Source of the DNA: Parvibaculum sp.
Lineage (GTDB): Bacteria > Pseudomonadota > Alphaproteobacteria > Parvibaculales > Parvibaculaceae
NCBI RefSeq assembly: GCF_002684405.1
Contig: NZ_NYVD01000145.1
Location: 1-63,043, forward strand
Reading direction: 5' to 3'
Length of the DNA: 63,043 bases
This document shows positions 2,668-61,770 of the stretch, in pieces; the first letter of the stretch is position 1, and each line of letters starts with the position of its first letter. The notes below the pieces were generated by a model. That model saw only the letters and a list, made by a program, of their open reading frames with translations. It did not search any database and was not told the DNA's origin. The translations under genes were made by a program, and so were the position numbers.

Positions 2668-3552
2668 CTACCCGCCTAGCATCTGTCTTGGATCGAAGTT
2701 CAGCTCGATTTCGCGCCAGCTATTGTATTTGTCCGCCGGCATCTTGAAGGGCTGGCAGAGCCGCACCGCCCGCAACGCGGCATCCGCCGCCGCCCGATAG
2801 GTCGCCCCGCCCGTAATCAGTTTCGTCCGGTCCATCAATTCCGGCGGCTGCCCGAGCGAGCCGTCGGGATTGAGGAAGACCCTGATCTTCACCGCCAGTT
2901 TCTCCGCACCTGCGGCACCCGCCGGCACCGTCCAGCATTTCGCCATCTGCACCCGGAACGCATCGACCTCCGACATGGTCAGCGGCATATCCGGATCGTC
3001 GGTCCTGGGCGCATCCACCTGCGCCTCGGCCTGCTGTTGCGGCCGCTTGGGCGCATTGTCCTCAGGCATCTTGTTCAAAAGCGCCGCCAGCCGGTTCGGA
3101 TCGAAGCTCTTCTTCTTTTCCGCCGGCGCGGATTTCTGAACCTTCTTTGCCGGTTTCGGCTTGGGCTTCGGTTTCTCCTTCGGCGCGGGCTTCGGTTCCT
3201 TTTTCGCTTCCTTGGTCGGCAAGGGCTCGGGCCTGGCTTCCGGCTTTGCCTCCGCTTTCGGCTGCTGCGGCGCCTTGGGCGCGGGCGGCGCCGGTGTCGG
3301 CTCGGATTTCGGCTCGCTCTTCGGCTCGGGCCGTTCGGGGGCCGGCGGTTTCGGCGCCTCCTTCGGCTTTTCGACCTTCTTTTCCGTCTTCATCTGCCGC
3401 TTCAGATTGGTGAACTCGTCGATCGTGACGAGATCCACCGGCAGCGCGCGCGTCTCCACGGACGGCAGTTCATCCGGCGAAGGAAGAACCACGATTGCCA
3501 GACCGAGGATGACGACATGCATCCCGACGGAATAGAGAAGCGAACTGCGCAT
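2668..3552 (-). CDS. tolA: TolA-like protein with TonB-type C-terminal domain
   Basis: 294 residues. One N-terminal membrane anchor (about 5-24) is followed by a long Lys/Pro/Glu-rich region (about 50-150) able to span the periplasm and a C-terminal TonB/TolA-like domain (about 190-290). TolA transmits force from the TolQR motor to TolB-Pal at the outer membrane. The Pro/Lys-rich spacer replaces the Ala/Lys helix of enterobacterial TolA, which is common in alphaproteobacteria. Two Cys in the C-terminal domain could form a disulfide. The gene is 8 bases downstream of tolR. Confidence 0.93.
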
Positions 3553-3560
3553 TCCCTGAG

Positions 3561-4025
3561 TTACCGTTTACCTGCCCCGGAAGGCGGGCTTGTATCCGTA
3601 TCCGTGACGAGCCCGACCTTGGAAAACCCGGCCGCGCTGATCCGTCCCATGATCTCCATGACCTTGCCATGCGTGACATCCTTGTCGGCACGCACGAAGA
3701 TCCGCTGCTTGTATCCGTTCTCTCCTATCGCAAGGAGCTGATCGACCAGCTTGTCCGGATCGACCTCCGTCTCCTGCACGAACACTTTTCCGTCCTTGCC
3801 GATGGTGATGGTCAACGGCTCGGTATCGCCGGTCAGCGGTTCGGCCTGCGTCTTGGGCAGGTCCACCGGTACGCCCACCGTGAGAAGCGGCGCCGCCACC
3901 ATGAAAACGATCAACAACACCAGCATGACGTCCACCATGGGCGTCACGTTGATCTCGCTCATGGGCGGACGCGAATAGTAGCGTCCCCGCCGTCCTCCTC
4001 TTCCCTGCTGCACGTTGAAAGCCAT
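3561..4025 (-). CDS. tolR: Biopolymer transport protein TolR (ExbD family)
   Basis: 154 residues. One transmembrane helix (about 25-45) is preceded by MSEINVTPMVDVMLVLL, which contains the channel Asp essential in ExbD/TolR/MotB proteins. A periplasmic ExbD domain with PKTQAEPL and a C-terminal extension follow. With TolQ it forms the proton-driven stator of the Tol machine in the inner membrane. Spacing to tolQ is 3 bases and to tolA 8 bases, so translation is probably coupled. Confidence 0.96.
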   Translation of the reverse strand: MAFNVQQGRGGRRGRYYSRPPMSEINVTPMVDVMLVLLIVFMVAAPLLTVGVPVDLPKTQAEPLTGDTEPLTITIGKDGKVFVQETEVDPDKLVDQLLAIGENGYKQRIFVRADKDVTHGKVMEIMGRISAAGFSKVGLVTDTDTSPPSGAGKR

Positions 4026-4028
4026 GCC

Positions 4029-4754
<726 letters not shown>

Positions 4755-4930
4755 TCAGCAGCCTCTCCTCGTACTCGAGCCTGTTGAGGGGTTGTGACGT
4801 GTAACGAGCTGTCCACGGTGCCAATCGACACCTGTTAAGCCCCCCAAATGCGGCTGATTTGTTCTTCCAATTATGTCAACAGCGTGGCGCAACGCGCGCC
4901 GCGGCGGATGCGACGCGGTTGAACGTCCTA

Positions 4931-4950
4931 ATGTTGCCAAGAGACAACAT
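4931..4950. repeat. Small inverted repeat in the ybgC-tolQ gap
   Basis: ATGTTG at 4931-4936 and CAACAT at 4945-4950 around an 8-base loop, in the 207-base spacer (4755-4961) between ybgC and tolQ. It could be an operator or a weak RNA stem. No T-run follows, so it is not called a terminator. Confidence 0.3.
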
Positions 4951-4961
4951 AATGTCAGCGA

Positions 4962-5450
4962 TTAATTTGCGATAAGCGGCGCCATCGCCGCGCGGACGCC
5001 CGCCGGGAGACGCCTGGGACGGCCCGTGGTGTCGATACAGGCCGCATAAACATGCGCTCGCCACAGCACCTCGTGGTCGCCGGTCGCCGCCCCGTCGCCC
5101 GATACCAGACGCGCGATTTCCTGATCGGCTTCGATTCGCGCCCCGCTGGCCCGCACATAGCGGGTCCTGACTTCGAGCAGATCGTCGATTCGCGCCGGTT
5201 TCACGAAATCCATCTCCATGCGATGGATCGCGAAGGCCAGCGGATCGTCGCCATCGAAAAGGTCGGTATGATGGACGCCGATCAGGCGCAGGAAGTCGGA
5301 ACGGCCCCGCTCTGCAAACCGCAGATAATTCGCGTGATAGACGACGCCGGAAAAATCCGTGTCCTCGTAATAGACCCGCACCGGCAACCGGTGGAGAGTG
5401 CCGTCGAGACAGCCCGCGACATCGGGCCAGCCGGGGTTCGCACCGCTCAT
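4962..5450 (-). CDS. ybgC: Tol-Pal-associated acyl-CoA thioesterase YbgC
   Basis: 162-residue hotdog-fold thioesterase. The motif [19 protein letters not shown] carries the catalytic Asp and the family Tyr/His residues. YbgC-type enzymes cleave short or long acyl-CoA and sit at the head of tol-pal clusters in many proteobacteria. Its start overlaps the ruvB stop by 4 bases, so it is co-translated with ruvCAB. Confidence 0.93.
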
Positions 5451-57317: not shown

Positions 57318-57788
57318 TCAGCAGTTCTTTCCCTGATAGATCCCTGTCAGCACCTGGCGGCGAACGCCTGCGTCGCGGGCACGCTGCTCGGCCTGAGCCT
57401 TTTGCTGCCCGGTGAGCTGCCCGGCCGCGTTCGTGGCCTGCATGGCGCCCACACCCCCGAAATAGCCGACGAAAGACGTCGCCACATTCGACACGGTCGA
57501 CGTCATCGCGGCGCTCGACGCATCCGAGCTCGCCGCCTGTTCGATAGCCTGCGTTTCTTCGATTTCAGCCCGGAGCTGCTCGCAGCTCTTCTTGCCGTCA
57601 TCCACCTGCGAGGCCGCCATGGTGGAACCAGCCGGCGCACCGCCGCCGCCCATATAGGCCCCGCTGGCCGCATTGGCCGCGCCCATATAGGAGGCCGCCG
57701 TGTTCGCCCCGCCGATACCCGTTGTCTGGCACCCGGCCAGCGTCACCGCCAGCCCCGCTGCAAAACCTGCAATCGCGATCTTTTTCAT
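57318..57788 (-). CDS. Small exported lipoprotein of unknown function
   Basis: 156 residues. Signal peptide MKKIAIAGFAAGLAVTLAGC with lipobox Cys20. A Gly/Ala-rich part (YMGAANAASGAYMGGGG) precedes a helical region (KKSCEQLRAEIEETQAIEQAA), a small hydrophobic Ser/Ala stretch, and KAQAEQRARDAGVRRQVLTGI. Three Cys in the mature protein. No +2 Asp, so probably sorted to the outer membrane. Family not recognised. GGAGA supports the ATG. Confidence 0.75.
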   Translation of the reverse strand: MKKIAIAGFAAGLAVTLAGCQTTGIGGANTAASYMGAANAASGAYMGGGGAPAGSTMAASQVDDGKKSCEQLRAEIEETQAIEQAASSDASSAAMTSTVSNVATSFVGYFGGVGAMQATNAAGQLTGQQKAQAEQRARDAGVRRQVLTGIYQGKNC

Positions 57789-57929
57789 GACCCATTGTCT
57801 CCATTGCCCGGACGGCACCCCATGTCCGTCCGCCGGCATGCGACAATTGGTAAGTGGCCGAGGCACACGGCTTAATAGTGCAAATGGACCATAAATCGCC
57901 GGAGCCGCCCGGCGGCCGGAGGGCGTTGC

Positions 57930-59747
57930 CTAACCGGCACCGTCTCCGACAAGCGCTTCCAGAACCTCCCGGTGGAGACGCGAGACCACGGCATGCCCCT
58001 CACCCGCTATGGTGCGGAATTCGGCAAGCTCGAGCTTCATCTCGTCGATCCGGCGCCGAAGTTCCGCCAGCGGCACGATCCGGTCTTCTTCCCCATGCCA
58101 GATGTGAAGCGGCGCGGAGAGCCCCGTCAGATCGATGTTCACGCCCTCCAGAAAAAGCGCCGATTCCCTCAGCAGCCCGCTATAGGTCAGCGCCACCGAT
58201 TCCATCACGGCGTCGATCATGTCTTCCACCAGATCCGGCTCGTCCTCCAGATAGGCGATGTCTCGCGGCGACTGCTCGAAAAAGCTGAAAACCAGCGGCC
58301 GCATGAAACGCCGGGACATCTTGGCCCGCAGAATGAAAAGCGTTGAATCGAGCAACCAGGGATAGCGGCGCAGATTGCTGAAGAAATAGCCGAGCATGCC
58401 GCGCCGCCCCGGCTCGCCTTCCGGCGCCCCGAAACGCGGCGCCACCATCATGTATTTCACGATGCGCGATCCCATGCGCGCGGCAACCGCGAGCCCGAAA
58501 GGCGCGGAGGACGACCGCGTCAGCAGGGAAAATTTTTCAAGCCCGATCTTGTCCGCCCATTCCTCGACATCGCGCGCCGCGCTTTCGAATGTCATCTCGG
58601 GATCGGCGGTCGAATAACCGGTCCCCGGCCGCTCGATAACGATCAGCCTGACGCCGAGTTCCGCGGCCGATTGCGCCTCCCTGTGCCAGACCAGGCTGCT
58701 TCTGAGCGAGCTTTGCATCAGCACCACGGGCGTTCCGTTGAGACGGCCATAAACGCGATAGGCAATGCGCCGCCCGTCATTCAGCTCGACGAAACGGTGC
58801 GGCACATCGTGAATGGCCGTCCCGAAACCTGCGATTTTCGCCTCTTCCTCGGTTCCGAAACGGATATAGGCAGATAGCTGGCTCAACTGCGTCAGATGCC
58901 GGACGAGGTCGCTCTGCCGGTTGATGCCGAGTTTTTCGAAGATGCTTTTGAGCTGGTTGCGGGCGGTATTGACGGTGACGCCGAGATCCTCGGACGCCTC
59001 CTTCAGCGACAGCCCTTCCTGGAGATGCGAGGCCAGCCTTGCTTCAGCGCGGCTGAGGCCCAGCGCCCGGCGAAAGACATGGTTGCGCCGCGCGGGCGGG
59101 TCCGGTTCCGGCGCGATGATGGCTATCGCCCCGTCACGCTCTTCCATCGGCAGCGAAATCGCATCGCGCAGACCGCGCGGAAGGTTGGCTTCCGGCACCG
59201 CATAGCCGACAACCGACTCGTCTCCCGCCTCGTCATAAAGACGGAACAGCAGGGGCAATCCATCCGCCGTGGATTGGAGCTGCCCGATCACCTCGCCCAG
59301 CCTTGCCTCGTTCTCCGGCATCGAAAAGGAAAGCCGCGCGCCCGGCGACATACCCTGCGCCGCATAGGGCGCCAGAAAAACCTCCGCGCCACGCGAGCGG
59401 GCAAGCACCCGCCTGTTTCGCCCGAAAACGAGATAGGCATAGGACCGGGAGATATCCTCCTCCGCCTGTTCGCCATGGAGCCGACCTGCGATCTCCTGCG
59501 CGCGTTCCAGATGCGACCGGATATTTTCCACCGAAGCGGCCATATCCGGCTGCTCCTCGCCCAGCTCGATCTGCTTGAGGAAGCGCGTCATCTCCTCCCA
59601 GTGATAGGGGTCGGAGGCATAGGTGTAGACGGCATCGACCACCGCGGAGAAACTCATATCCGCGGCGGCAGCTTCCACTCCGTCCACTATATTCGGCTCC
59701 CCGGCCCCGCTTTCGCGATTGCCGGCCTCTTTATCGGCCACATCCAC
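57930..59747 (-). CDS. LuxR-type HTH regulator fused to a C-terminal alpha/beta-hydrolase domain
   Basis: About 605 residues from the GTG at 59747; a start at Met31 (59657) is also possible. Order: N-terminal sensor part (about 31-215; AVVDAVYTYASDPYHWEEM and a PAS-like stretch RSYAYLVFGRNRRVLARSRG); LuxR HTH (about 226-290; GLSRAEARLASHLQEGLSLK, LGVTVNTARNQLKSIFEKLG); alpha/beta hydrolase (about 318-603). In the hydrolase the nucleophile elbow is RSSSA (411-415) instead of GxSxG, while Asp555 (GEEDRIVP) and His585 (GEGHAVV) are present. HTH regulators normally end with the HTH. No LuxI synthase is nearby. Possible ligand-sensing hydrolase-like receptor. Confidence 0.85.
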   Translation of the reverse strand: MDVADKEAGNRESGAGEPNIVDGVEAAAADMSFSAVVDAVYTYASDPYHWEEMTRFLKQIELGEEQPDMAASVENIRSHLERAQEIAGRLHGEQAEEDISRSYAYLVFGRNRRVLARSRGAEVFLAPYAAQGMSPGARLSFSMPENEARLGEVIGQLQSTADGLPLLFRLYDEAGDESVVGYAVPEANLPRGLRDAISLPMEERDGAIAIIAPEPDPPARRNHVFRRALGLSRAEARLASHLQEGLSLKEASEDLGVTVNTARNQLKSIFEKLGINRQSDLVRHLTQLSQLSAYIRFGTEEEAKIAGFGTAIHDVPHRFVELNDGRRIAYRVYGRLNGTPVVLMQSSLRSSLVWHREAQSAAELGVRLIVIERPGTGYSTADPEMTFESAARDVEEWADKIGLEKFSLLTRSSSAPFGLAVAARMGSRIVKYMMVAPRFGAPEGEPGRRGMLGYFFSNLRRYPWLLDSTLFILRAKMSRRFMRPLVFSFFEQSPRDIAYLEDEPDLVEDMIDAVMESVALTYSGLLRESALFLEGVNIDLTGLSAPLHIWHGEEDRIVPLAELRRRIDEMKLELAEFRTIAGEGHAVVSRLHREVLEALVGDGAG

Positions 59748-59993: not shown

Positions 59994-60923
59994 CTAACGT
60001 ATTGACGTGTTCGACTGCAGGCCGTCCGGGACCTTGAACGGATCGGCGTCGGGGTTCTGGCCTACCGTCATCTGGTTGGTGACAAGTTGCGTGCCGACAC
60101 CATCTGAGGGTCTGGACGATAGCGGGATCTCGGCGCCGGGAAGCTGCACCTCGTCGACATGAGTCAGATCCGGGTCATAGCCGGAGATGTATCCGATGTC
60201 GTCGATAGACCCTTCGTCCTTGAAGCCCCATTTTGCACCGCCGGACCAGAAGCACGCGCTTCCCCCATCCACGCGTTTTGTCATCAGGCACGGTTGGCCG
60301 GCGATTGTCGTCTGGGATGTCGTTGTCTGCGCCTGGTCGGCTATGCCGCCATAGCCTTGCTTTCTGAGTTCGGCCATCACCGCGGCTTCTTCGTTTTGGG
60401 CTTTCGTCTCTTGTGCCTGGTTCCCCGCAGGGGCGGCGTTTCGGACAACCCGATACGCCGGATCTCTTACGACTGTGCCATCGTCCAGATTGATCGAATA
60501 CGCCCCATGCGCATTGGCGATGGCCTCGCGTTCACTGCGGACCGCTGTGAAGTGGCACTGTTTTGTGCCCGATGGCCCCATCTTGAACCCCCAGCTGACC
60601 GAATGGATCGACATGTTGGAGCCCTCATACCAGATGTCGTAATAGGTATGCCCCAACCTGGCGATCGTATCGGAACTCAGCGGCGTGAAGTCGAGGGCCG
60701 CTCCTGCTTTACGGCACACCGCCGCAGCTTCTTCGTAATCTTGCCGGACTGCCGGTGCGCCATCTCTCATCCCCCAGGCCTCCTGCTGGATATGGATCGG
60801 CGGCGTTTCGGGCGCCACATTCGTGGCCGCATCCGCTTGAGCGGACATTCCAAATGATCCGGCCATAAGCGCCGTCACGGTGAGCACCTGAAACTTGTTG
60901 CCTGGGCGATGTTTTCTTTTCAT
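59994..60923 (-). CDS. Exported protein of unknown function
   Basis: 309 residues. Signal peptide MKRKHRPGNKFQVLTVTALM..MSAQADA (cleavage near 32). The mature part has four Cys (AAAVCRKAG, TKQCHF, GQPCLM, SACFWSGG), suggesting two disulfides, and many Trp/Gly/Asp. No family is recognised. GGAG eight bases before the ATG at 60923. Its codon choice looks less GC-biased than nearby genes, a possible sign of transfer. Divergent from another exported protein with 121 bases between the starts. Confidence 0.7.
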   Translation of the reverse strand: MKRKHRPGNKFQVLTVTALMAGSFGMSAQADAATNVAPETPPIHIQQEAWGMRDGAPAVRQDYEEAAAVCRKAGAALDFTPLSSDTIARLGHTYYDIWYEGSNMSIHSVSWGFKMGPSGTKQCHFTAVRSEREAIANAHGAYSINLDDGTVVRDPAYRVVRNAAPAGNQAQETKAQNEEAAVMAELRKQGYGGIADQAQTTTSQTTIAGQPCLMTKRVDGGSACFWSGGAKWGFKDEGSIDDIGYISGYDPDLTHVDEVQLPGAEIPLSSRPSDGVGTQLVTNQMTVGQNPDADPFKVPDGLQSNTSIR

Positions 60924-61044
60924 GGCGAGCTCCTCATTTGCGTCGGCGGATAGTATTCCTATGCTTGTGGCATCATTGTGGACGCACGCCCGATCCCGGA
61001 AACTGCAATCGATGCGACAACGCCTTTCAGCAAGGAAGTGTGCG

Positions 61045-61770
61045 ATGCGAACACCTGGATCCCGTTCTGTTGCTTTCGGGGCGTTCCTGTCGGTCCTGTG
61101 CGGCACTGCCGCTCCCGCCGTCTCCGCAAATATCCGTCCGGTGGCCTATCCGACCCTCCCTCCCATGGTAGACAGGGCGCAAGCTGTCGTACCCGATGGA
61201 TGGCAGTCTTCCTCCCTTGTGTGGGGCGACTTGAACGGGGACGGGCACAAGGATTTCGTTCTCCTGCTGCGCGACAATGACCCCGCACTGAGACCGTCTC
61301 AATCCTTCGACACCAACCCCTATATGCTCGCGATCTATTTCTCCGACGGAGACGGTCAATATCGAAGAATCGCGAGCAACCACCGCCTGATACCGCGTCA
61401 CGACTCCCCTGAGCTCGAAGACGTTATCGACAGTGTGACCGGCGGCGGCGTGTGGATCGAAAACGGCACATTGCTTGTATCCCTCGGGCTTTTTTCCGGC
61501 ACGAGTTCCGGCATGGGGAGTCGCGGCTTCACCTTTCGGTGGCAGGACGGGCATTTCGTCTTGATCGGCTTCGACAGCTACGAGGTGAATCGCGCGGACG
61601 GTTCCATTTCCTCAGACAGCTACAATTTTCTGACAGGGCGCAGAAAACACGGCGTCTCGTCGATCGATTCCGACCAGACGAAATTCACCTGGAGCAGCTT
61701 CGCAAGGCATCGCGCGCCGACACTGAATGAAATGGGTGACGGCACAGAATTCGATCCGACCGCGCAGTAA
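61045..61770 (+). CDS. Exported protein with one FG-GAP/EF-hand-like motif
   Basis: 241 residues. Signal peptide (MRTPGSRSVAFGAFLSVLCGTAAPAVSA), then VWGDLNGDGHKDFVLLLRDND, a calcium-loop FG-GAP pattern, and a beta-rich remainder (GVWIENGTLLVSLGLFSG, FTFRWQDGHFVLIGFDSY, WSSFARHRAPTLNEM). Proteins with a similar layout are uncharacterised periplasmic proteins. AAGGAAG precedes the ATG. It shares a short promoter region with the exported protein at 59994-60923, so the two probably act together. Confidence 0.72.
   Translation: MRTPGSRSVAFGAFLSVLCGTAAPAVSANIRPVAYPTLPPMVDRAQAVVPDGWQSSSLVWGDLNGDGHKDFVLLLRDNDPALRPSQSFDTNPYMLAIYFSDGDGQYRRIASNHRLIPRHDSPELEDVIDSVTGGGVWIENGTLLVSLGLFSGTSSGMGSRGFTFRWQDGHFVLIGFDSYEVNRADGSISSDSYNFLTGRRKHGVSSIDSDQTKFTWSSFARHRAPTLNEMGDGTEFDPTAQ

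Follow-up and report, generated by a model that had tools for sequence, protein, structure and literature searches.

One chain with a PAS-like region, a LuxR-type helix-turn-helix and an alpha/beta-hydrolase domain: a putative one-component regulator in Parvibaculum and its widespread family

The RsbQ/RsbP-PAS system of Bacillus subtilis has been described as a bipartite sensing module made of an alpha/beta hydrolase (ABH) and a PAS domain, with various outputs (PMC3183031, in the parts of that paper drawn on here). In it, a bacterial alpha/beta hydrolase and a PAS domain jointly control an output domain, which can be a PPM phosphatase, a histidine kinase or a diguanylate cyclase (PMC3183031, same parts). 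By analogy, this would be the nearest precedent for the protein analysed here; however, the ABH and the PAS domain of that system are encoded by separate adjacent genes, whereas a PAS-like region, a helix-turn-helix (HTH) and an ABH domain make up a single chain in the protein at hand. RsbQ signalling has also been found to require the catalytic triad, whilst most of the fused ABH domains that we sampled are without it, and the terms ‘LuxR’ and ‘helix-turn-helix’ do not occur in the main text of that paper (PMC3183031).

In plants, the ABH fold is used as a receptor in D14/DAD2, KAI2 and GID1, and it is from these few proteins that the passage from hydrolase to hormone receptor has been argued (PMC3531792, in the sections used here). 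The same review, in those sections, finds it ‘tempting’ to regard DAD2 and KAI2, which bear the triad, as intermediates toward GID1, which is without the His. DAD2 has kept its triad, as has the window protein, and GID1 has lost its active-site His, as have many of the fused relatives (PMC3531792, same sections). The comparison rests on the ABH fold: the plant receptors act via F-box or DELLA partners, whereas the window protein has a DNA-binding domain in the same chain. With one-component regulators of the LuxR/FixJ (GerE) type, including PAS-LuxR proteins, it has in common a GerE-type HTH and a PAS-like N-terminus, but its HTH lies mid-protein with an ABH domain behind it, and the autoinducer-binding domain of LuxR quorum-sensing receptors found no Pfam match in it at E values up to 1. 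Among the literature matches listed, which were open-licence papers, there was no description of a LuxR-HTH/ABH fusion; an earlier reading made from the DNA letters (the sequence-only reading) had named many characterised proteins with this order of domains as grounds against itself, and no such protein was found among those matches. The LuxR proteins of Actinobacteria have been surveyed, and the part of that text considered has no word starting with ‘hydrolase’ (PMC3466318). When a joint HTH + ABH profile was run against the PDB, the HTH part was left uncovered in the best stretch of each of the best 60 of 233 matches. The parts are known; what looks new is their combination in cis, together with the pattern of triad states.

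The window, that is the whole stretch of 63,043 nucleotides of Parvibaculum sp. DNA that was analysed, holds the gene as one frame of 605 residues with a GTG start and zero internal stops. Its features, and the gene downstream of it, are as follows.

57930..59747, minus strand: whole gene, 605 residues, PAS-like region, LuxR-type HTH and alpha/beta-hydrolase domain (ORF, Pfam, P. indicum match)
59103..59456, minus strand: PAS-like region, from about residue 98 to 215 (PDB matches of a profile of 39 N-terminal regions)
58878..59072, minus strand: LuxR/FixJ-type (GerE) helix-turn-helix, residues 226-290 (Pfam, motif alignment, dN/dS 0.09)
57933..58802, minus strand: ABH domain, residues about 316-605 (Pfam, PDB, Foldseek on a low-confidence model)
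58710..58715, minus strand: oxyanion loop position, Q345-S346 replacing His-Gly (alignment)
58506..58520, minus strand: nucleophile elbow T410-R-S412-S-S414, with its Ser but without the two Gly (alignment)
58083..58085, minus strand: Asp555, triad acid, invariant in 20/20 of the window's clade (alignment)
57993..57995, minus strand: His585 of the triad, invariant in 20/20 of the window's clade (alignment)
57318..57866, minus strand: co-directional downstream gene, small-lipoprotein-like, possible target or partner (matching ORFs in 9/19 loci; lipobox from sequence)

The sequence-only reading had placed the HTH (226-290) in the middle of the protein with a full alpha/beta-hydrolase domain after it, and the profile searches bear this out: in Pfam, Abhydrolase_1 matched residues 339-585 above its cut-off (E 5.2e-7), and a match of GerE to residues 230-283 (E 0.0024) fell below the cut-off. 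In seven fused relatives searched in the same way, GerE was above the cut-off in three (L037, L085, L131), below it in another three (L034, L132, L133) and missing from L134. Membership of the GerE type is further indicated by N260-Q265, invariant in 20/20 members of the window's clade, which we take to be the recognition-helix region of the HTH. The best PDB sequence match of the ABH domain is 9wlv (E 2.4e-10, residues 323-589), and its best NCBIfam matches are of the enol-lactonase (PcaD) type, all of them far below their cut-offs. Structure prediction, run on two sequences, gave a pLDDT of 41.7 for the full length and of 52.1 for the ABH domain alone; with the latter, low-confidence model, the best 50 of 1725 Foldseek matches were hydrolase-type by title, and because their TM-scores by query length were just 0.35 to 0.49 the Foldseek result appears to add little to the ABH sequence match. 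A search with PF00765 (LuxI) gave no match in the window's genome (G000), a result to be read alongside the control of that search, which likewise matched no genome.

Parvibaculum indicum DSM 25305 (Alphaproteobacteria) carries a copy that is 88% identical, the one relative obtained in a search of named genomes that reaches close relatives only. Between the two copies, dN/dS (Nei-Gojobori script) was 0.20 overall, with 0.22 for residues 31-221, 0.09 for the HTH (222-292) and 0.12 for the ABH domain, within which the cap, at 0.07, is the most constrained of three parts; purifying selection maintains the ABH domain. The search for the same domain order in other genomes, as the sequence-only reading had proposed, yielded, from Alphaproteobacteria and a further class of the phylum, 92 ORFs that match both the HTH and the ABH profiles, the window's own and a few cut pieces counted in, with a median length of 598 residues between stops and 6/92 below 500. 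The fused order is the rule among them and the single split copy is in G009, so that the separate genes, frameshift or assembly error which that reading had weighed against itself are not the pattern seen. In five named plasmid records the fusion is a single annotated CDS, labelled alpha/beta hydrolase in Ruegeria sp. TM1040 (WP_011536845.1), Paracoccus methylovorus (WP_205296979.1), Agrobacterium sp. RAC06 (WP_069044247.1) and Maritalea myrionectae (WP_117397120.1), and LuxR C-terminal-related transcriptional regulator in Aliiroseovarius sp. M344 (WP_260519347.1). A number of bacterial genes labelled ‘alpha/beta hydrolase’, as in four of these five records, are likely to be transcription factors. 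That the gene is dead, or arose through an error of assembly or a frameshift, can be given hardly any credence: the G009 copy split over two frames, the pieces at contig ends in G023 and G026 and a partial HTH match with a stop in G022 are what it could draw on, but it is refuted by the 92 ORFs of the same order, the five single CDSs on plasmids and the overall dN/dS. Judged on its single frame, the close P. indicum copy and the shared order, the window gene is a real fused gene, beyond chance.

The spread of the family was estimated with a profile of HTH + ABH (alignment A1), for which a match was set at E 1e-30 or better. It matched at least 24/385 genomes of the class, at least 13 of them spanning HTH and ABH, and at least 42/398 genomes of the phylum, at least 36 of them spanning both domains; the two samples overlap by few genomes, and the counts are lower bounds, as scoring was confined to 4 or 5 candidates in each genome. 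Twenty of the 36 phylum genomes with both domains belong to another class of the same phylum, probably Gammaproteobacteria (19 in family f188 and one in f237).

The N-terminal region of the window protein has no Pfam match of its own. Against the PDB, a profile built from 39 family N-terminal regions (alignment A3) matched the PAS sensors DosP (E 5e-6) and FixL (E 4e-4) and, more weakly, several histidine kinases, and when the members were searched singly in Pfam (E up to 0.05) PAS_4 was obtained in 5/39 and PAS in 4/39. This likeness is one of general PAS similarity, and the architecture is read, from these profile matches, as PAS-like, then HTH, then ABH. In related genomes there are HTH proteins without an ABH domain that match the N-terminus plus HTH; one of them, L026, has weak PAS matches.

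The sequence-only reading had singled out a changed nucleophile elbow, RSSSA in place of GxSxG, in a protein that retains the Asp and His of the triad. The motif is found at 411-415, with GEEDR at 552-556 and GEGHA at 582-586, and the Gly flanks do differ; in the alignment, however, it is T410-R-S412-S-S414 that fills the G-x-S-x-G columns, so both Gly are replaced and the nucleophile Ser is still there. That the window protein has lost its elbow Ser was considered and rejected, S412 occupying the nucleophile column. D555 and H585 are in place as claimed, and together with S412 they stand in the catalytic columns. In place of the GxSxG elbow and the HG oxyanion motif of active serine hydrolases, the protein has TRSSS and QS; small residues can be tolerated at the elbow Gly places. 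With S-D-H kept, as it is throughout its sub-clade, the window copy may still be a hydrolase.

Thirteen of the 20 members of the window's clade (35% identity or more) have Ser at residue 412 and the other 7 have Ala; HG is kept in 0/20 and both elbow Gly in 6/20. In the sub-clade that contains the window protein, 13/13 rows have S-D-H, at identities over HTH + ABH as low as 42%, which suggests that the triad has a use there. The adjoining branches have Ala, Val or Met at the nucleophile, so a regain of Ser in the window's sub-clade is possible. In a sister genus, the orthologues L046 and L047 occupy the same syntenic place and have Ala where the window has Ser; the nucleophile can therefore go while the gene persists. 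Tandem copies in the same direction are found in G012, G014, G016 and G021, the Ala-type first and the Ser-type second; these LuxR-ABH pairs (L033, L034, L035, L036) are from four genomes of the window's genus. Another family has a tandem LuxR-ABH pair in G161 (L127 3919-7647 and 7776-10334), adjoining a gene with the pilus-usher-type domains TcfC and CooC_C. In G296, a recent partial second copy (L179 14265-15134) lies a few kb from the fusion gene (L179 7586-9256), with 906 bases at 97% identity.

Stand-alone ABH proteins (9wlv, PcaD-type) are the best sequence matches of the window's ABH domain, but no HTH was matched in them. When one sequence was taken per 40%-identity cluster, S-D-H was kept in 6/37 fused against 9/11 stand-alone domains (Fisher p 1.2e-4), the latter being a small set retrieved with the same profile as the fused ones; over all sequences the figures are 22/87 and 16/18. 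Each counted alone, Ser is present in 35/87 fused sequences and His in 44/87. Both elbow Gly are kept in 18/18 stand-alone relatives, whereas the first is kept in 40/87 and the second in 67/87 of the fused, and the HG oxyanion motif is found in 17/18 stand-alone versus 21/87 fused sequences. In fused ABH domains the nucleophile is replaced by Ala, Leu, Gly, Asp, Gln, Val, Met or Cys, and the His by Gln, Tyr, Phe, Asn, Ala, Val and others; catalytic residues are missing in most of the fused relatives sampled. Asp is at the nucleophile place in L028, L132, L042, L067, L069 and L115, and four of these six have Ser at the acid place. As an own-genome control, 30 ABH loci of the window's genome were taken from 36 matches and scored at the elbow only, which gave 21 Ser, 1 Asp and 1 Ala among 23 readable elbows, 7/30 having no readable elbow.

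Nine weakly matching ABH ORFs without HTH, lying in the flanks, were dropped before the counts; GHSWG is present in eight and no such motif in one, and because 8/9 contain GHSWG their removal gave no advantage to the contrast between fused and stand-alone domains. The count set is also without six rows, namely the fused L014, L016 and L019, which are cut or split, L002 from P. indicum, the cut L124 and a stand-alone-looking piece of L016. The non-S-D-H rows of the stand-alone set are L075, which may hold an unrecognised HTH, and L136. The latter (3284-5002), a Halomonas plasmid protein, carries, besides a thioesterase domain, a second ABH domain with Cys at the nucleophile place, and its gene adjoins AMP-binding and phosphopantetheinyl-transferase genes. 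For the tree, L075, L136, L123 and L135, rows that were doubtful or had very long branches, were further removed. On a quick ABH tree made without the triad columns, Ser, His and S-D-H needed at least 10, 12 and 9 changes, with 2 changes separating fused from stand-alone domains and a single stand-alone clade not rejected (p-AU 0.36); with the four doubtful rows in, the numbers were 10, 13, 8 and 4. A single ancient fusion fits this tree, which is no proof of it, and the similarities of HTH and ABH were correlated (Mantel rho 0.58, 0/500 permutations). As the replacements are varied and the stand-alone relatives intact, we infer that triad loss was the main direction, a matter in which tree counts alone cannot separate loss from gain.

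The sequence-only reading had proposed that a ligand sensor resembling a hydrolase may be joined directly to a DNA-binding domain, and the comparison is in its favour (S-D-H in 6/37 clusters, at least 9 state changes, purifying selection), while that reading had overlooked that Ser412 is kept, so that the window copy may still hydrolyse, as well as the PAS-like N-terminus and the width of the family. We consider it probable that the protein is a one-component transcription factor in which the C-terminal hydrolase-fold domain is the main ligand sensor in cis, together with the PAS-like N-terminus. The mid-protein LuxR/FixJ-type HTH would bind DNA, and the main ligand-sensing module would be the C-terminal hydrolase fold, working jointly with the PAS-like N-terminal region. 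The ligand would be a small molecule, probably hydrophobic or acyl/lactone-like, lodged beneath the helical lid in what was once the active-site pocket, and occupancy of the pocket would alter the geometry of the lid or the dimer and, through this coupling, the activity of the HTH. In the Ser-bearing copies, including the window's, a slow or covalent attack by Ser412 could be an alternative trigger. By analogy with the plant receptors, the sensing domain would be D14-like in the window protein, which still bears the triad, and GID1-like in most of the sampled relatives, in which the triad is broken.

The same residues could also belong to a bifunctional trigger enzyme, in which the ABH domain of the Ser-bearing clade does work as a hydrolase, either destroying or making the signal, and the HTH regulates the matching genes, the relatives with broken triads being separate degenerate branches. 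This is rather unlikely, though it deserves real weight: S412, D555 and H585 are present, S-D-H is complete in 13/13 sub-clade rows, D555 and H585 are invariant in 20/20 of the wider clade and D14-type receptors are themselves hydrolases (PMC3531792, in the sections used here), but HG is found in 0/20 clade members, both elbow Gly are found in 6/20, and Ala stands for Ser in 7/20, the syntenic orthologues of the sister genus among them. Loss of catalytic residues would also be explained if the ABH domain were a scaffold, that is a platform for protein interaction or dimerisation without a small-molecule ligand, and sensing were done by the PAS-like region, which could act as a sensor, or by a partner protein; the ABH of RsbQ/RsbP has indeed been proposed to contact the PAS domain (PMC3183031, in the parts drawn on here). 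This appears improbable, as Asp and His are invariant in the window's clade even where Ser has become Ala, which points to a pocket in use, and as the cap is the most constrained of the three ABH parts (dN/dS 0.07 against P. indicum).

A wider picture can be offered tentatively, as one that may or may not hold: a large, so far undescribed family of PAS-HTH-hydrolase transcription factors in which an enzyme was captured once beside a DNA-binding domain and turned receptor many times independently, in which the Ser/Ala tandem pairs may form a catalytic/non-catalytic couple, and in which several branches lie beside autotransporters and other surface proteins that they may control on a lipid-like signal. 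With its dozens of lineages, triad states from full to totally lost and the same kind of output, the family could make the path from enzyme to receptor testable in simple bacteria, and a class of small-molecule signals new to knowledge may await discovery.

At a number of loci other than the window's, the fused gene is beside, or one gene from, genes for surface or secreted proteins. Autotransporters (PF03797) are found near it in three branches, and the other such neighbours include pilus usher-like, Slam-like and LamG/HYR proteins, a lipase plus FadL, a ceramidase-like protein and an OMP barrel; the neighbours scanned were hand-picked for a secreted look, the remaining ones being ordinary housekeeping genes. 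In a PF03797 search of 65 genomes, an autotransporter was located by eye within 5 kb of the fusion in at least 7 cases (G001, G011, G013, G017, G028, G035 and G257, among the matches listed), where 0.64 would be expected from the 63 fusions of 45 of these genomes, a sum that excludes 20 genomes of the other class, which are nearly devoid of autotransporters. By lineage, there were at least 3/27 against 0.20 expected (Poisson p 0.0012), a p-value that serves as a guide only, as the autotransporter idea and the 5 kb limit were set after examples had been seen. Frames of about 525-562 residues that have an HTH match and no ABH match lie amid several autotransporter genes in G028:C1 (about 2.830-2.840 Mb) and in G035:C1 (about 2.370-2.383 Mb).

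Beside the window's fusion gene lies the lipoprotein-like gene in place of an autotransporter. This gene (57318-57866), for which there was no Pfam match, has matching ORFs in 9/19 other loci compared, and the places of GapR (PF10073, 61849-62166) and DUF1244 (PF06844, 62281-62829) have matching ORFs in 13/19, on crude ORF calls of which some are on the shadow strand; the six loci without GapR are other paralogue places. An upstream dyad scan of 21 regions gave no clear operator, the best 5-base dyad occurring in 4 of these related sequences against a shuffle maximum of 1 to 3. The fusion gene is separated from GapR by two overlapping ORFs at 59994-61770 (370 residues on the minus strand, without a Pfam match, and 291 on the plus strand), which are unmatched in the 19 other loci, the P. 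indicum locus included; in P. indicum, GapR adjoins the fusion gene.
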